Source of the DNA: Tepidisphaera sp.
Lineage (GTDB): Bacteria > Planctomycetota > Phycisphaerae > Phycisphaerales > UBA1924
DNA: 64,000 nucleotides
Assembly: GCA_016124375.1 (NCBI GenBank)
Contig: WGNV01000002.1
Location: forward strand, 186,001 to 250,000
Direction: 5' to 3'
The notes under the pieces are model-generated. The model did not search any database and was not told the DNA's origin. It was given only the letters and a program-made list of their open reading frames with translations. Positions 939 through 39,054 of this stretch are shown here, in pieces. How positions within the stretch are numbered: position 1 is the stretch's first letter; every line of letters begins with the position of its first letter. The position numbers and the translations under genes are program-made.

Positions 939-3900
939 TCAATGAAAATCGCGGCTGCGGGCGTGGATGGACTCGCCCGCGATCGATACACGCCGGATGC
1001 GGCGCGTCATGACGTGCACGACGTCGCCCTGACGCTCCACGATGCCGGTGGCGGCGATGGCCTGGCTGTGCTTGGCCGCGGCCCGGAAACGTTCGTAGAT
1101 CTTGGGCCGCACGATCAGGTTGGCCACGCCGGTCTCGTCTTCGATCGTCATGAACACGATGCCGCTGGCCGTGCCCGGGCGCTGACGCACCAGCACCAGC
1201 CCCGCCACCGTGACGGGCGAGCCCGCGGGGGTGAGCGCTGGGTCGGCGAGCGCGGCATTCGGCGTCACGCCCTGGGCGGCCAGGGCTTCGCGGGCGAAAC
1301 GCATGGGGTGGGCCTTCAAGGAAAGTCCGACATTGCGATAGTCCTCGCTCACGCCAGTGAGCGCCGACTGCGCGGGCAAAGCGCACGGGGCGGCCACATC
1401 CGCCCACACGCCTGCCTGCTCGAAGAGCGGCGCGGGGTCGTCCTTGAGGGCTTGAATCGCCCACAGGGCACGCTGGCGCGAGAGGCCGAGGGAGTTGAAG
1501 GCGTCGGCCTGGGCGAGCAGGCGGAGCGAGGCGACGCTGATGCTGCTGGATCGCCAGAGGGTGGGAATGTCGCGGAAGAGGCCCCGACCGGCGCGGGCGG
1601 CGGCCTCGACGGCGGCAACGAGTTTTTCCGCCTCCTCCTGCGAAAGCCCGCGCACCAGCCGCATGCCCAGCCGAATCGCTGGCCCGCTGGGTGTCGGTTC
1701 CAGCGTGCAGTCCCACTGGCTGTGACTCACATCCACGGGCCGCACTTCGACGCCGTGCGCCTGAGCGTCGCGGATGATCTGGGCGGGTTGATAAAACCCC
1801 ATCGGCTGGCTGTTGATGAGCCCGGCGGCGAAGGCGGCGGGATGGTGGCGCTTGAGCCACGCCGACGAATAGACCAGCAGCGCGAAACTGGCGGCGTGGG
1901 ATTCCGGGAAGCCGTAGCCGCTGAACCCGCTGATTTGCTGGAAGACTTGAGCCGCGAACTGGGGCGTGTGCCCGCGGGCCTGCATGCCGCTGATCAGTTG
2001 GTGTTCGAATCGCTTGATCGCGCTGCCGCTGCGTTTCCATGAGGCGATGGCGCGGCGAAGTTGGTCGGCCTCGCCCGGCGTGAAGCCCGCGGCGACGACG
2101 GCCAGGGCCATGGCCTGTTCCTGAAACAGCGGCACGCCCAGCGTGCGACCCAGCACGCGCTCGATCTCGGGTGAGGCGAACTCGACGGGTTCCTCGCCGT
2201 TCCGTCGGCGTATGTAAGGATGCACCATCTTGCCTTGGATGGGCCCCGGGCGCACGATCGCGACCTCGATGACCAGGTCGTAGTAGCAGCGCGGCTTGAG
2301 CCTTGGCAACATCGACATCTGGGCCCGTGATTCGATCTGGAAGACGCCCACGGTGTCGGCCTTGCAGGCCATGTCGTAGGTGGCGGGGTCTTCAGGAGGA
2401 ATCGTCGCGAGCGTGAGCGACGCGCCGCCGCTGGTCGAGACGAGGTCGAGGGTTTTTCGAAGACACGACAGCATGCCCAGGCCCAGCACATCCACCTTGA
2501 GCATGCCCATTGCCTCGATGTCGTCCTTGTCCCACTCGATGACTGTCCGGTCCTGCATCGCGGCGTTTTCGATGGGCACCAGTTCGCTCAAGGGCGTGCG
2601 GGTGATGACGAAGCCGCCGACGTGCTGCGAGAGATGCCGCGGAAAGCCCATGATCTCGCGGGCGAGTTGCACGGTCGTTCGCAGCGTGGGCTCGCGCGGG
2701 TTCAGGCCCAGGCGGCGCAGCCGCGCGTCGTCCGCGGGTTCGTCGCTCCACCAGTCCAGGTCCTTGGCCATGATGCCGAGCGTGTCGGCGGAGAGGCCCA
2801 TCGCCTTGCCCACTTCGCGGATGGCGCTGCGACCCCGGTAACTGATGACCTCGGCGGTGAGGGCCGCCCGGTCGCGCCCGTACTTGGCGTACAGATGCTG
2901 GATCACCTCCTCGCGGCGTTCGTGCTCGAAGTCGATGTCGATGTCGGGCGGCTCGTCGCGTTCCTTGCTGATGAATCGCTCGAAGAGCATGCTGACCCGC
3001 GCGGGGTCGACGGCGGTGACGCCCAGGCAGTAACACACCGCGGAGTTGGCCGCGGCCCCGCGCCCCTGGCACAGAATGCCCCGGGAGCGAGCGAAGCGCA
3101 CGATTTCCTCGACCGTCAGGAAATACGGCGCGTAGTTGAGTTCATCGATGAGCCGCAGTTCGTGGTCGATCTGGGCCTGCACGCTCGCCGGCACGCCTTG
3201 CGGGTAGCGCGTGGCGGCTCCCGCGCGGGTGAGTTCCGCCAGGTGACGCATCGGCGTCGAGCCTTGGGGCACGATTTCGTCGGGGTATTCGTACTTGAGT
3301 TGATCCAGGGAAAAGCCGCGGGCTCGCGCGGCGATCTCGCGCGTGCGGGCGATGGCGCCGGGGTGACCCGCGAACAGCCGAGCCATTTCGTCGGCGGGCT
3401 TGAGATGTCTTTCGCTGTTGGCGGCCAGCCTCCAGCCAGCCGCGGCCACTGTGCACCCGTGCTTGATGCACGTGAGCACGTCACGCAATCGCCGTCGCTG
3501 CGGCGAATGAAAGTGCACGGCGTTGGTCGCTACCACCGGCACGCTCACTCGCTCTGCCAGCGACACCACCTCGCGCACGCGGGCGTCGTCATCTTGTGTG
3601 TACGTCCGCGCGACTGCGATCGACAGACGATCGTCGTCAAACACGCCCCGCAGCGTGCGAGCCGTCTCGGCGCACGTTGGGTTCAGTTCTTCGGGGGGCG
3701 CCAGCACGCACAGCAGCCCTTCGTGATGTGCCGCGATGTCGACGAGCGTCAGGTGACACTGCCCCTTTGGGGCGCGGCGTTTGCCGAGCGTGAGGAGGCG
3801 GCACAGGTTGGCGTATGCCGCGCGACTGGTCGGATACAGCAGCAGCGACAGGCCCGGCGCGTCGGTGGGCTTCACGCGCGAGCCGACGACCAACTGGATG

Positions 3901-4172
3901 CCCGCCCGCTTGGCGGCGACGTGGGCCCGCACGATGCCCGCCAAGGAGTGCGTGTCGGCGATGGCGATGGCGGTGTGACCGAGAGCCGCGGCGTGCTCGA
4001 CGAGTTCGTCCGCATGGCTCGCGCCTTCCAGAAACGAAAAGTTGCTGATGCAGTCCAACTCCGCGTAGCCCCCGGCGGCCGGCGCGTGATGCCCGGGCTC
4101 GCTGGGCGAGCACGCAGGGTGCGGGCGGACTTTGGGAAAAGGTGCTTCGGGCATAAAACTGCGCTGCGTCAC
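939..4172 (-). CDS. dnaE2: Error-prone DNA polymerase III alpha subunit DnaE2/ImuC
   Basis: A 1077-residue C-family polymerase of the DnaE2 (ImuC) type, which performs translesion synthesis with ImuA and ImuB. An N-terminal PHP domain begins near residue 38 (NFSFLEGASH). Its metal motif is degenerate, with ELDC where replicative enzymes have a His, as is common in DnaE2. The polymerase core carries the catalytic PDIDIDF near residue 410 and VDVLGLGML near 558. A C-terminal OB fold (residues ~985-1035) contains TVAGLVLVRQRPGTASG, typical of DnaE2. Length fits the family (1000-1100). The start is a GTG; an in-frame ATG at 4154 is the alternative. It is the last gene of the SRAP-imuA-imuB-dnaE2 cassette, 191 bases after imuB, with a cloverleaf repeat in the gap. 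Confidence 0.95.
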   Translation of the reverse strand: MTQRSFMPEAPFPKVRPHPACSPSEPGHHAPAAGGYAELDCISNFSFLEGASHADELVEHAAALGHTAIAIADTHSLAGIVRAHVAAKRAGIQLVVGSRVKPTDAPGLSLLLYPTSRAAYANLCRLLTLGKRRAPKGQCHLTLVDIAAHHEGLLCVLAPPEELNPTCAETARTLRGVFDDDRLSIAVARTYTQDDDARVREVVSLAERVSVPVVATNAVHFHSPQRRRLRDVLTCIKHGCTVAAAGWRLAANSERHLKPADEMARLFAGHPGAIARTREIAARARGFSLDQLKYEYPDEIVPQGSTPMRHLAELTRAGAATRYPQGVPASVQAQIDHELRLIDELNYAPYFLTVEEIVRFARSRGILCQGRGAAANSAVCYCLGVTAVDPARVSMLFERFISKERDEPPDIDIDFEHERREEVIQHLYAKYGRDRAALTAEVISYRGRSAIREVGKAMGLSADTLGIMAKDLDWWSDEPADDARLRRLGLNPREPTLRTTVQLAREIMGFPRHLSQHVGGFVITRTPLSELVPIENAAMQDRTVIEWDKDDIEAMGMLKVDVLGLGMLSCLRKTLDLVSTSGGASLTLATIPPEDPATYDMACKADTVGVFQIESRAQMSMLPRLKPRCYYDLVIEVAIVRPGPIQGKMVHPYIRRRNGEEPVEFASPEIERVLGRTLGVPLFQEQAMALAVVAAGFTPGEADQLRRAIASWKRSGSAIKRFEHQLISGMQARGHTPQFAAQVFQQISGFSGYGFPESHAASFALLVYSSAWLKRHHPAAFAAGLINSQPMGFYQPAQIIRDAQAHGVEVRPVDVSHSQWDCTLEPTPSGPAIRLGMRLVRGLSQEEAEKLVAAVEAAARAGRGLFRDIPTLWRSSSISVASLRLLAQADAFNSLGLSRQRALWAIQALKDDPAPLFEQAGVWADVAAPCALPAQSALTGVSEDYRNVGLSLKAHPMRFAREALAAQGVTPNAALADPALTPAGSPVTVAGLVLVRQRPGTASGIVFMTIEDETGVANLIVRPKIYERFRAAAKHSQAIAATGIVERQGDVVHVMTRRIRRVSIAGESIHARSRDFH

Positions 4173-4231
4173 AATCGAACTTCATCAAACTTCGGCGATA
4201 TCAAACCTCAGCGATGCGATGGGCCAATCCG

Positions 4232-4325
4232 GACGCCGGACCTGAGCGAAGCGAAGGTCCGGGTTGGATGTGGGTCACGCTCGCGTTACCCACCCGGAGA
4301 TTCGCCAAGCCTCATCTCCGGCGTC
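4232..4325. repeat. Cloverleaf-forming intergenic repeat, copy A
   Basis: This 94-base element lies between imuB and dnaE2 and folds into a four-way junction with no unpaired junction bases. The outer stem is GACGCC (4232-4237) with GGCGTC (4320-4325). Hairpin 1 is GGACCT (4238-4243) with AGGTCC (4255-4260). Hairpin 2 is GGGT (4261-4264) with ACCC (4292-4295), and GTGGGT (4270-4275) can pair inside it with ACCCAC (4288-4293). Hairpin 3 is GGAGAT (4296-4301) with ATCTCC (4314-4319). A second copy at 23205-23284 keeps the architecture with compensatory changes in hairpin 3. It does not resemble tRNA. It is probably a dispersed extragenic palindrome; function is unknown. Confidence 0.8.
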
Positions 4326-4363
4326 TGCAATGGCGTGTTCGCTGTCTCCTCCGTGTCCGTTCA

Positions 4364-5860
4364 TCACGCCCACTCTCCGTGCACAAACCACGCGTCGCGC
4401 TCGCCCACGCTCGCGCGAAAGATCCACAGCACGCGTCCATCCAACAACGCCACCTTGAAGTAGTCGCGCACGCGGGGCAGGGCCGCGGGGCGCCACCATT
4501 CCTCCTCGATGCGTTCGGGGCCGATGCCCGCGACGACGGGGTGGGTGTCACCCTGCATGCGGATGGCCGCGAGCGGGCCGTCGGGCACGAGGAGCGTCAC
4601 CTCGATGGGCCGGGGCGGATCGAAGAGCACGCTGGGGCGATCCTCGCTCGTCACCTTCGCCAACTCGGCTTCAGGCAGGCCGACATCGAACGCGAAGGCG
4701 GCTTCCGGCACGTGCGATTCGATCGCCCGCAGCGAACGCACCCGCTCGGCGCCCAGGCGAGCGCCGAGCGTGTCGGCGAGGTTGGCGATGTCGGCCGGGG
4801 CCTCGGCGGGCGCGGGGGCCCAGTGCTCGCGCTGCGTGTGCGCCACGCACGACACCTGCCCGGCCCGAGCCGCGACGCCCTGCACGCCAAAGCCCAGTTC
4901 CGCCCGGTCCACCTCGCTTGCCAGCAGCGACCACAGGTGCTTGGGGTCGCGCGAAGGGCGGCTCGTGCGTGCCCTCAGCGTGAGCGGCGCCATGTCGGAC
5001 CGGTCCAGCGTGAGTTCCAGCAGTCGGCACCCCCGCTCGCGGGCGTGCAGCAGTTCGCACACGCGGGTGATGACGTTGCGAGCCGCCAGCGTGATCGATT
5101 CGAGCCGATCGGTCGGGCCGTCGAACGTCATCTCCGCGATCAAGGGGGGACGCCCCCGCAAGGGCGTGATGAGTTCGGGCGTGCGCCCCAGGGCCTGGTC
5201 GAGGCGCAGCAGCAGCCCGTCGCCATAGCGGGCGGCCAGCGCGTCGCGCGAGATCGCCAGCAACTCGCCGATGCGTGAGAACCCGATGCGTGCGAGGCGG
5301 TCGAGCGTCGCGGGTTCGAGGCGCAGGGCCGCGAGCGGCAGGTCGCGCAGCGCGTCGAGCACGTCCGACTGCGTCACGACGGCTTCGGGCTCGGCCCCGA
5401 ATCGCGCCAGCGCCCACGCCGCCCCGAAGGTCGGGGCGGCCGCCACCCGCACCGCAAACCCGCGGCGCCGAAACCTCGCCCCGAACAACCGGACCAATCT
5501 GGCCACGCTGCCGTAGAGCCGTTCGCACCCGCTCACGTCACAGAGCAGTCCATCGGGCGGATCGAGCGATACCACCGGCGCCAGGCGCGTGCTTGCAACG
5601 CCCGCCCGGCGCAGCGACCACGCGACGCCCGCTTCGTCCAGCGCCTCGATGCAGTGGCGCGTGGGCAAGAGGGCCCGCGCATGGGCGAGGGTCATGCCCG
5701 GTCGCACGCCGCGCTTGCTCGCCGATGCGCTGGCCGCGGCGACCACCTCCACCTGGTGCTCGCAGCGGCTCAGCACGATCGGCGTCGCGTCGCTAAGACG
5801 CCTGGCGCGTCGCACCAGGTCGGTCGCGAACCTCGGAAGATGTACTGCCAAGCCCACCAT
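4364..5860 (-). CDS. imuB: ImuB, catalytically inactive Y-family polymerase homologue
   Basis: A 498-residue DinB/Y-family protein of the ImuB type. It is the mutasome hub that links ImuA and DnaE2 to the sliding clamp. The N-terminal ~230 residues follow the Y-family palm/fingers/thumb layout (RRGVRPGMTLAHARALLP, LCDVSGCERLYG, LARIGFSRIGELLAI). The N-terminal metal-binding acidic residue of active enzymes is absent (GLAVHLPRFATD), as expected for ImuB. The C-terminal half is the variable ImuB region. Its start lies inside the 3' end of imuA with a 68-base overlap, so the two are translationally coupled. Context makes the assignment firm. Confidence 0.93.
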   Translation of the reverse strand: MVGLAVHLPRFATDLVRRARRLSDATPIVLSRCEHQVEVVAAASASASKRGVRPGMTLAHARALLPTRHCIEALDEAGVAWSLRRAGVASTRLAPVVSLDPPDGLLCDVSGCERLYGSVARLVRLFGARFRRRGFAVRVAAAPTFGAAWALARFGAEPEAVVTQSDVLDALRDLPLAALRLEPATLDRLARIGFSRIGELLAISRDALAARYGDGLLLRLDQALGRTPELITPLRGRPPLIAEMTFDGPTDRLESITLAARNVITRVCELLHARERGCRLLELTLDRSDMAPLTLRARTSRPSRDPKHLWSLLASEVDRAELGFGVQGVAARAGQVSCVAHTQREHWAPAPAEAPADIANLADTLGARLGAERVRSLRAIESHVPEAAFAFDVGLPEAELAKVTSEDRPSVLFDPPRPIEVTLLVPDGPLAAIRMQGDTHPVVAGIGPERIEEEWWRPAALPRVRDYFKVALLDGRVLWIFRASVGERDAWFVHGEWA

Positions 5861-17832: not shown

Positions 17833-18061
17833 GTCGCGCCCGCGCACTCCGCCGCTGCGTCGCGGAGCCCTGCATCTCGTGTCGCCGGCTGGCCTCCCCC
17901 AAGCGTGCCATGCCCGGAGCGGCATTCCCGGCCAAGGCACCACCCCGCCGAGCCCGGGGCTCAAGCGATGACAGAAGCCAAAGTCGGCCTCTCCGCGGAG
18001 TTTGGGATGTTCGGGGTGGCCTCGAAGGCGCCGACGTAATCCATCGACGTCTCGAAAAAAA

Positions 18062-18135
18062 CACGGGCGAAGGGAGTCGAACCCCTAACCTCCTGATCCG
18101 TAGTCAGGTGCTCTATCCAATTGAGCTACGCCCGC
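18062..18135 (-). tRNA. tRNA-Arg (ACG anticodon)
   Basis: Read on the minus strand, it has a 7-bp acceptor stem (GCGGGCG with CGCCCGT, G-U at the end). It also has a D arm (GCTC...GAGC), an anticodon stem CCTGA/TCAGG with loop CTACGGA (anticodon ACG), and a T arm with TTCGACT. ACG is modified to ICG to read CGU/CGC/CGA. No CCA is encoded. A run of seven T follows the 3' end (18055-18061) and may terminate transcription. Confidence 0.95.
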
Positions 18136-18357
18136 ACTGCCGGGCCGGGGCCCGGTCAAGGGAGCAAGCCTAATCACGCTTTCGGCCCGGGGCAAGTGTC
18201 AGGGGGTCGAGATGTGCCAGATACGGGGTTTGTGGGCCCCCGCGGCTTGATTCTGCGGGGCGTCAGGTCAAGAATGTCGGCCCGGAGTGTGGCGGACGGT
18301 GCCGTCCGGGTCCGTGTCTTTCGCTGATGTCAGGGTTCGCAAAGGAAGTTTTTCGAT
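18136..18357. other. Leader region upstream of rpsT
   Basis: This gap of 222 bases separates the tRNA-Arg gene, on the opposite strand, from rpsT. It must hold promoters for both. A compact GC hairpin (CGGACGG/CCGTCCG around 18294-18309) lies about 50 bases before rpsT. An AAAGGAAG ribosome-binding site is present. I see no convincing -10/-35 pair and no coding frame. Confidence 0.4.
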
Positions 18358-20274: not shown

Positions 20275-20312
20275 GTTTCTTCAGGCTGCGGATGGAAGGC
20301 GTCTGGAATCGC

Positions 20313-21074
20313 CTATTTCTTGTTTGGCTTGGTCACGCCGGTCGCGTTCTTGGTCATGCCGCCGAAGCGCTTCTGCGTGCCCAGGCCGCTGTCGGTGGCC
20401 AGGTTGGGCCCCTTGGGGGCGGGCGCGCCGACCTTTCGGAGCTGGCCCTGGGCGCCGGGGCCAATGGCGCCCACAGTAACCTTGTTCGCCGGAACCTGGC
20501 CGCCGGGGAGTGGCTTGGGGAGCGCCGTGACCTTGTCCGGGTAGCTGGTCTGGGCCCGAACGCCGCCGGGGCCCTTCTTGAGGACCATCTTGTTGCTGTC
20601 GACCTTCGCGTTGAAGGTCTCGACCGCCCCGGTCTTGGTGTTCATGACCGAAACCTTGGCGATGGGCTTGAGGCGCCCACCCGACTGCGGCACCGAGATT
20701 GCCTGCTTGTTGTTCATCCCGCCCTTGGCGACGGTGTCACGCAGGTTCTGGGCGCCGGTGGAGTTCATGGTGCTCCGCGCACCCATGTTCTGGTCCGCCT
20801 TCCCGAGATAGCTGCTGACCATCTTGGTGGCCGGAACCTTCTTGCCCTGCGCCTTGAGACCCTGCACCTGATTCTGCACGCGATTGGAGAGGTATTGCCC
20901 GCTCTTGCCGACGTGCTCCGAGCGATTGTGAGCGCCCTGGGCGTCCGAGTTGTTGAGGAAGTTGCTCGCGCCCTTGTTGCTCACCCCGGTCGGCGCGGGC
21001 GCTTTGGGGGGCGCGGGGATCTTCGGGGCAGGACCCTTGACGGGGTTCGGGCCGGGCTTGTTCATCTTGGACAT
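20313..21074 (-). CDS. Protein with bacterial RNase A-like (CdiA-CT type) toxin domain
   Basis: A 253-residue basic protein. Residues 1-45 are Pro/Ala/Lys-rich (PGPNPVKGPAPKIPAPP). Residues ~50-180 match the layout of the CdiA-CT RNase A-like fold: HVGKSGQYLSNRV (His54, Arg65), ARSTMNSTGAQNLRDTVAKG (~99-118), and a closing MVLKKGPGG...QTSYP (Thr176). In that family an N-terminal His and Arg and a C-terminal Thr in a TAYP-like motif form the ribonuclease site. A 70-residue low-complexity basic tail follows. There is no signal peptide, secretion domain or obvious immunity gene. The ATG has GGGGAG eight bases upstream. The domain call is from memory of the motif pattern. A structural or DNA-binding low-complexity protein is the alternative. 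Confidence 0.65.
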   Translation of the reverse strand: MSKMNKPGPNPVKGPAPKIPAPPKAPAPTGVSNKGASNFLNNSDAQGAHNRSEHVGKSGQYLSNRVQNQVQGLKAQGKKVPATKMVSSYLGKADQNMGARSTMNSTGAQNLRDTVAKGGMNNKQAISVPQSGGRLKPIAKVSVMNTKTGAVETFNAKVDSNKMVLKKGPGGVRAQTSYPDKVTALPKPLPGGQVPANKVTVGAIGPGAQGQLRKVGAPAPKGPNLATDSGLGTQKRFGGMTKNATGVTKPNKK

Positions 21075-23204: not shown

Positions 23205-23284
23205 GACGCCGGACCTGAGTCTTCGAAGGTCCGGGTGAGGCGAGCGACAAACCCGGAAGTTCGCAGAGCCTCACTTCCGGCGTC
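23205..23284. repeat. Cloverleaf-forming intergenic repeat, copy B
   Basis: This second copy of the element at 4232-4325 is 80 bases long and lies between the convergent ends of trpF and the shikimate kinase gene. The outer stem is GACGCC (23205-23210) with GGCGTC (23279-23284). Hairpin 1 is GGACCT (23211-23216) with AGGTCC (23227-23232). Hairpin 2 is GGGT (23233-23236) with ACCC (23251-23254). Hairpin 3 is GGAAGT (23255-23260) with ACTTCC (23273-23278). Relative to copy A, two base pairs of hairpin 3 have changed on both sides, keeping pairing, while its loop (TCGC..AGCCTC) is conserved. No junction base is unpaired. Confidence 0.8.
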
Positions 23285-38976: not shown

Positions 38977-39054
38977 TACGAGCCCGACGCGCGAGCGAGG
39001 GTCTTCGTGGTGTCCGAACATCAGTGAGACCCTCGCTCGCGCTTCGGGCTCGTA
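38977..39054. repeat. Large intergenic inverted repeat (28-bp arms)
   Basis: The arms at 38977-39004 and 39027-39054 are complementary at 27 of 28 positions, with a 22-base loop. Each arm starts TACGAGCCCGA and includes GCGAGCGAGGGTCT. I recall very similar GAGCCCGAAGCGC-containing repeats as dispersed elements in planctomycete genomes. It lies between the aldo/keto reductase start and the CDF transporter stop, and may also act as a terminator or transcript stabiliser for the latter. Confidence 0.85.

Follow-up and report, generated by a model that had tools for sequence, protein, structure and literature searches.

A putative mobile REP doublet between imuB and dnaE2 of a planctomycete, and a RAYT gene enclosed by units of the same repeat family

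Background

The genes imuB and dnaE2 of the Tepidisphaera sp. genome analyzed here are separated by an interval that holds a strongly folding sequence of 94 nt, and the locus raises the question of what this sequence is, how it came to lie there and whether it matters for dnaE2. A first-pass annotation had drawn it as a cloverleaf with a perfect four-way junction and had proposed either a REP-like element moved by a RAYT-type transposase or a cruciform protein-binding site, with a possible effect on dnaE2 expression. Positions given without a contig refer to the window, i.e. the whole stretch of 64,000 nucleotides that was analyzed. The source genome (G000) comprises 3.1 Mb on 16 contigs and is 76% complete, and all copy counts for it are therefore lower bounds.

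Layout and folding of the element

The sequence, termed copy A, consists of two palindromic units in inverted orientation, and the second copy that had been reported for the window does exist:

4232..4325, no strand assigned: copy A, a REPIN of 94 nt made up of two inverted REPs with outward tags, based on sequence, BLAST and covariance model
4232..4264, plus strand: REP unit 1, 33 nt, GACGCCGGACCTGAGCGAAGCGAAGGTCCGGGT, loop of 11 (covariance model 57.0 bits)
4265..4291, no strand assigned: 27-nt spacer separating the units of copy A
4292..4325, minus strand: REP unit 2, 34 nt, GACGCCGGAGATGAGGCTTGGCGAATCTCCGGGT, loop of 12 (covariance model 52.6 bits)
23205..23284, no strand assigned: copy B, the window's second REPIN, with units at 23205-23236 (plus strand) and 23251-23284 (minus strand) and a 14-nt spacer

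The unit has the architecture GACG-CCGGANNT-GAG-loop-CGA-ANNTCCGG-GT, in which CCGGANNT and ANNTCCGG form a stem of 8 bp, and each copy is flanked by two genes that are both on the minus strand. As had been stated, copy A is not a tRNA: ARAGORN detected only a tRNA-Arg at 18061-18136 in the window, and a search of the whole window with the Rfam covariance models returned nothing except this tRNA (18062-18135). A near-perfect hairpin of a different kind is found at 38977-39054, with 37-nt arms (86% complementary) and a 4-nt loop, possibly representing another repeat family.

The four-helix drawing can be retraced by eye on the sequence; its outer helix of 6 bp (GACGCC/GGCGTC) and its hairpins of 6 (GGACCT/AGGTCC), 4 (GGGT/ACCC) and 6 bp (GGAGAT/ATCTCC) fill all 94 nt with zero junction bases left over. 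However, this is not an independent coincidence that chance would rarely give, because in an element made of two inverted palindromes the outer ends, like the inner ones, are necessarily complementary, and any inverted pair of the form GACGCC-GGANNT...ANNTCC-GGGT can be drawn in the same way. Nor is the four-way junction supported as a special feature of the element, as it is not the most stable fold and the variable dinucleotide pairs inside the units and not between the arms (see below). When folded freely, copy A forms a single long hairpin. This hairpin exceeds in stability the fold in which each unit is forced into a hairpin of its own (8-bp arms and an optional 4-bp outer stem), both as DNA (-28.4 versus -23.8 kcal/mol, outer stem unformed) and as RNA (-55.2 versus -45.3 kcal/mol). 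A long-hairpin and a less stable 'clover' fold have already been proposed for the REPINs of Pseudomonas (PMC3116915, Figure S11 legend), and the available part of that paper suggests the 'clover' as the form recognised by a RAYT dimer. The RNA fold of positions 4222-4335 is more stable than all 200 of 200 dinucleotide shuffles (z -6.1).

A dispersed family of REP units

Units of this type are found throughout the source genome. BLAST with copy A hit 46 places, the pattern GACGCCGGANNTGAGN{3,9}CGAANNTCCGGGT occurred in 72 exact units (its reversed form in none), and a covariance model built from 53 units, with scores computed for 150 of the 6480 candidates, matched at least 108 times at E <= 0.1, which corresponds to at least 106 non-overlapping units. 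Among these, 36 pairs are no more than 150 nt apart, all 36 with the tags outside, while the other 34 units stand alone; the spacer is exactly 14 nt long in 12 of the 36 pairs, and spacer sequences vary. The covariance-model search that the first-pass annotation had recommended thus recovered a dispersed family with maintained unit hairpins, which is the opposite of what had been named there as refutation, namely a lack of further copies or copies with decayed helices.

With a length of 32-35 nt and at least 106 copies, the units fall within the definition of REPs as palindromes of 20-40 bp in high copy number, and the 36 close pairs with outward tags, together with the long-hairpin fold of copy A, are those of REPINs. 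The REP-like nature that had been suspected is thus borne out by palindromic units in high copy, inverted dimers and covarying stems. Like REPs, the elements are mainly extragenic (37 of 41 elements in 43 loci, compared to 166 of 860 random 90-mers; genes were predicted with our own codon-usage gene caller, which missed the RAYT gene described below), with 25 elements located between co-directional, seven between convergent and five between divergent genes.

Conservation ends at GACG on the 5' side and at GT on the 3' side of the unit. The tag is GACG in 52 of 53 aligned units and GACC in the remaining one; it is followed by a stem with C-G as its first two pairs, and the unit ends in a GT or AT tail. 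The base preceding the tag is T in 34 of 70 units and C in only 2 of 70 (p about 3e-10 each, compared to window composition). Above the stem, GAG and CGA are opposed to each other and, judging from these letters, could form two tandem sheared G.A pairs.

Two stem pairs are variable among the 36 distinct aligned units; each is found as C-G, G-C or A-U and shows 19 double changes, and no G-U form was present at either of them in this set. The covariation score is 0.257 compared to 0.063 for shuffled alignments and is reached by none of 500 shuffles, and sliding the pairing partners abolishes the signal. With only two pairs free to vary, the alignment has no more covarying pairs and no more pair types than the shuffles. 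In the 23 dimers in which both units are exact (13 of the 36 pairs were left out, having one unit that is not exact), the dinucleotide is complementary inside the unit in 45 of 46 units, both arms carry the same dinucleotide in 2 dimers, and the arms differ in 21. As the arms rarely match while the units stay self-complementary, it is the single-unit hairpin that is kept, and not pairing between the arms. Avoidance of identical arms as such is not significant (2 of 23 versus 4.9 expected, P 0.07). Loops of 12 and 10 nt co-occur in dimers above shuffled expectation (13 of 23; 0 of 20000 shuffles).

GC-rich DNA folds readily, and copy A might for this reason be regarded as a mere chance structure. 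Given the copy number, which refutes this idea, the 72 exact units against none of the reversed pattern, the 0 of 200 shuffles that fold as stably as copy A and the covariation, we attribute practically no probability to it. A site for a host protein such as gyrase, IHF or an HU-like protein, bound as cruciform or duplex and both spread and retained for chromosome architecture, would be in line with the possible extrusion of inverted pairs as cruciforms and, by analogy, with the binding of E. coli REPs by IHF, DNA polymerase I and gyrase that is mentioned in the available part of PMC6006769. Against this speak the unlike variable dinucleotides of the arms in 21 of 23 exact dimers, the 34 of 106 units that have no partner and the RAYT gene with units on either side, and a host-protein site is an improbable explanation of the family.

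A RAYT gene enclosed by units

A Y1 (RAYT-like) transposase gene, which it had been advised to look for, is present in the same genome and is enclosed by units of the family:

G000:C16:20391-20936, minus strand: RAYT, HUH/Y1 gene with an open frame of 181 aa (profile E 8.5e-43; motifs THVH and RYIAEH)

The profile used was built from the Y1 genes of two relatives, G052 (L089) and G019 (L108). On the same contig, a dimer with units at 20304-20336 and 20360-20392 adjoins the 3' end of the gene so closely that the stop codon TGA shares its GA with the tag GACG, and on the other side a unit at 20977-21009 begins 40 nt ahead of the ATG. The unit at 20304-20336 is identical to units at three other places in the genome (C4:131747, C4:351414 and C4:484284). 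The RAYT gene is apparently intact, and its protein matched no Pfam family at E 0.001.

Alternatively, the units might be MITEs or relics moved by another transposase, e.g. one of the IS200-like Y1 enzymes of the genome, which has five matches to Pfam Y1_Tnp (PF01797), two of them (L031 and L033) exceeding the NCBIfam IS200 cut-off. Yet none of these five loci has a unit within about 1.5 kb (E <= 1), and they were rejected as mobilisers; with the RAYT gene being enclosed by units, mobilisation by another transposase is highly improbable.

Several other Y1 genes deserve mention in their own right. L031 (G000:C1:114979-118317) is an IS200-like Y1 gene with YIRRQKEHH, a motif of the published subclass 1.2; on each side of it, similar peptides (GCQGWLCTPG) are encoded, a hint of flanking repeats. 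A second group of Y1 genes, which includes L035 (G000:C8), L099, L090, L097 and L109, starts with YFLTWxxxGxxLHG.xRG, mostly contains NHVH, has no unit of the GACG family nearby and possibly belongs to the published class 3. In L034 289-3228 (G000:C4, about 470794-473733), Pfam detects a Y1-like domain in frame inside leucyl-tRNA synthetase, with the motifs DHVH and YVVRNPV, beside or within the editing domain. Leucyl-tRNA synthetase of G078 (L102) contains a Y1-like domain too (Pfam; below the Y1 cut-off), and Y1 motifs also occur in frames of similar length in L106 (G017) and L091 (G003). In L100 628-2124 (G019:C14), Y1_Tnp follows a Ham1-like (RdgB-type) sequence in one frame, with GTGFQPV peptides in between, which we take to be a translated planctomycete repeat.

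Related RAYT genes and their hairpins

Related RAYT genes were detected in 140 of 300 relatives searched (profile, E <= 0.001). Elsewhere in the order, Y1 genes lie between REP-like pairs in G052 (L089) and G019 (L108). G070 contains a related gene with a GACG-tagged unit on each side; repeats are present on both sides of such a gene in these three genomes as well as in the source genome. Hairpins of this type occur within 300 nt of 26 of 94 non-redundant related genes, on both sides in seven cases. In a strict test that requires a perfect stem and a GA...GA loop, 38 hairpins were counted in 57.2 kb beside the 94 RAYT genes (including one at L202 that is probably due to chance) versus 13 in 310.7 kb of control sequence more than 900 nt away from the genes, i.e. 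at 16 times the density; no such hairpin was found under this perfect-stem test for 68 of the 94 genes. The feet of the 38 hairpins are GACG in 11, CAAG in seven, AACG in five and others in 15 cases, and mostly follow the form NAMG.

The encoded proteins share an N-terminal signature, WLPGDPRGFR...HSSGDYK, and combine a HUH motif and a single Tyr with a predicted IS200-like fold. Next to THVH and RYIAEH in the protein of the source genome, HxH is present in 76 of 77 non-redundant aligned relatives (95 of 96 in a further count) and the catalytic Tyr in 71 of 77, with a gap in the other 6; the fourth residue after this Tyr is His in 58, Gln in 8, Lys in 3 and Arg in 2 and is absent in 6. Foldseek, run with the structure predicted for the G019 relative (pLDDT 83.8), gave the E. 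coli REP transposase as its best PDB match (4er8_A, E 4.7e-5). VIA-align 2 ranked IS608 (2vju_B, Z 13.3, rmsd 6.6, 107 aligned) slightly higher than 4er8_A (Z 12.1, rmsd 3.3, 126 aligned). A sequence search of the PDB returned weak matches only (best E 0.006). The NCBIfam RAYT model matched 16 of 32 relatives at E <= 0.001 with scores below the cut-off where shown; for NF047646 (REP_Tyr_transpos), two relatives reached 36.0 and 24.7 bits, compared to a cut-off of 80 bits.

Searching for the exact pattern revealed units in 4 of 61 genomes, suggesting near-restriction to the source genome; with the covariance model, units were found in at least 21 of 121 related genomes, with scoring limited to 58 candidates in each. 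Of the 21 genomes with units, 9 encode a close RAYT (E < 1e-20), as do 27 of the 100 others, and the presence of the two is not significantly associated across the 121 genomes (p 0.19). Twelve of the 21 unit-holding genomes lack a close RAYT of this type, among them G017, which has at least 58 units and a best RAYT match of E 5e-4. This weak co-presence counts against a simple one-to-one link between unit and RAYT. The pattern could be explained by incomplete assemblies, by RAYTs that were lost, or by different REP variants in other genomes.

The imuB-dnaE2 interval

As had been described, copy A lies between co-directional imuB and dnaE2:

4364-5860, minus strand: imuB, which encodes IMS and IMS_C domains and is transcribed ahead of copy A
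4155..4363, no strand assigned: imuB-dnaE2 gap of 209 nt, holding copy A
939-4172, minus strand: gene for a dnaE2-type DNA polymerase III alpha, which follows copy A in transcription

As both genes are on the minus strand, the strand shown is not the transcribed one but its complement. The start codon of dnaE2 is probably the ATG at 4154, which aligns with the start in relatives and underlies the gap length of 209 nt. In four genomes of the same genus, only 11 (G001), 11 (G002), 12 (G005) and 3 nt (G006) separate the stop of imuB from the start of dnaE2. No close dnaE2 match was found in G003 and G004. Copy A is located 38 nt past the imuB stop and 77 nt ahead of the likely dnaE2 ATG. The REPIN makes up 94 of the 209 nt, and there is no exact empty site because the other 115 nt are not REPIN. 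In the stretch that separates copy A from the start of dnaE2 (4155-4231), tandem-like 16-mers (ATCAAACTTCGGCGAT / ATCAAACCTCAGCGAT) can be recognized by eye.

This position could mean that copy A acts mainly as an RNA hairpin in the imuB-dnaE2 transcript, influencing how the mRNA decays, how ribosomes move along it or how strongly dnaE2 is expressed. Its location between co-directional genes, shared by 25 of 41 elements, and its strong RNA fold (z -6.1) are consistent with such a role, as is the distance of 3-12 nt between imuB and dnaE2 in relatives, due to which any translational coupling existing there would be broken here. On the other hand, no terminator-like or promoter-like site was found at 3900-4700, the two covarying pairs never take the G-U form, copy A follows the imuB stop by 38 nt, and about 100 copies near unrelated genes speak against a role specific for dnaE2. 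An RNA element as the main explanation therefore seems unlikely to us; an RNA role could, however, be compatible with a mobile origin, and an effect of copy A on dnaE2 is possible.

We thus regard copy A as a non-autonomous mobile REPIN which was most likely moved in trans by the genome's own RAYT and landed between imuB and dnaE2, with a probability of roughly 0.86. What can be read directly from the genomes, i.e. the family, the limits of its unit, the covariation, the extragenic placement, the RAYT enclosed by copies and the wider gap, is all in agreement with this mobile REPIN. In the mechanism that we propose, the RAYT would recognise the single-stranded unit hairpin with its 8-bp stem and GAG...CGA loop base plus the GACG tag, and would cut and rejoin DNA at the edge of the unit. 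Insertion of copy A between nearly contiguous imuB and dnaE2 frames would have left them about 200 nt apart, with 94 of the 209 nt presumably arriving as one insertion. Of the earlier proposal of a REP-like element moved by a RAYT, the REP family and the enclosed RAYT gene have thus been observed, and we infer the mobilisation from them. For the window, this would mean that a mobile repeat resides in a repair-gene cassette.

Comparison with known REP/RAYT systems

The published systems are compared here on the basis of those parts of the cited papers that were available. The REPINs of Pseudomonas fluorescens SBW25 (PMC3116915) resemble the present elements in their inverted REPs with a spacer, extragenic location, occurrence of singlets, RAYT neighbour and alternative long-hairpin and 'clover' folds, and differ in the tag (GTAG or GTGG there, GACG here), in stem and loop, in phylum and in their spacers, whose sequences vary here although 12 of 36 have a length of exactly 14 nt. 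With the E. coli y and z REPs and their TnpA-REP (4ER8; PMC8266576, PMC2817692), the units share a hairpin and an unpaired 5' tetranucleotide. Further features in common with GTAG-tagged REPs are positions that do not form Watson-Crick pairs where the lower part of the stem passes into the upper part, and a HUH/Y1 gene beside copies (PMC8266576, PMC2817692), and a GAG...CGA loop similar to that of the unit is described for the Coxiella REP (PMC2817692). In contrast to GTAG-tagged REPs and REPtrons, the tag is GACG here, and the RAYT has Tyr-x-x-x-His instead of the Tyr-x-x-x-Asn-Pro of class 2. The unpaired 5' GTAG or GTGG that defines the GTAG superfamily is thus replaced by GACG in 52 of 53 aligned units.

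The CGTC-tagged REPs (PMC3733652) are similar in being tagged stem-loops of about 33 nt which mostly form dimers with the tags outside and frequently heterodimers. The tag alone is ambiguous, as GACG is the complement of CGTC. However, according to the available part of PMC3733652, the first two stem pairs of CGTC repeats are nearly always A-T and their tails mostly CCA, whereas the stem starts C-G, C-G here and the tail is GT or AT, and no CGTC repeat was found there beside a transposase gene, whereas the present units enclose a RAYT.

Based on their descriptions in the available part of PMC6006769, class 1 carries Tyr-x-x-x-Gln, class 2 Tyr-x-x-x-Asn-Pro, and class 3 YV[VI][AENY]EQ together with a CnGA foot. 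The present clade resembles the class 3 TnpA-Y1 of Planctomycetes and other groups in protein length (median 178 aa), phylum, a W-A motif, a conserved extended N-terminus and non-GTAG hairpins. It differs from class 3, as far as this is described there, in its mostly YIxxH motif, i.e. Tyr-x-x-x-His, and in feet such as GACG, CAAG and AACG, mostly NAMG, in place of CnGA; it differs from class 2 in that the residue at Tyr+4 is mostly His among the 77 relatives. By these descriptions and to judge from its sequences, the clade appears to fit none of the published classes 1-3. Our search of the open-licence literature yielded no paper on a GACG-tagged REP or on the present RAYT clade in planctomycetes.

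We see an even chance that these genes and repeats represent a further REP/RAYT class that is widespread in Planctomycetota, characterized by enzymes with the N-terminal signature and Tyr-x-x-x-His and by NAMG-tagged REPs with a GAG...CGA loop base, whose tag varies by lineage along with the enzyme. If true, a repeat of the GACG/CGTC type would gain a dedicated transposase, which was not found for the repeats in the available part of PMC3733652. In the source genome, units of the GACG family, set apart from CGTC families by stem and tail, lie on both sides of a RAYT that is apparently intact. The differing tags of related RAYT loci make the reading of tags by RAYTs open to testing.
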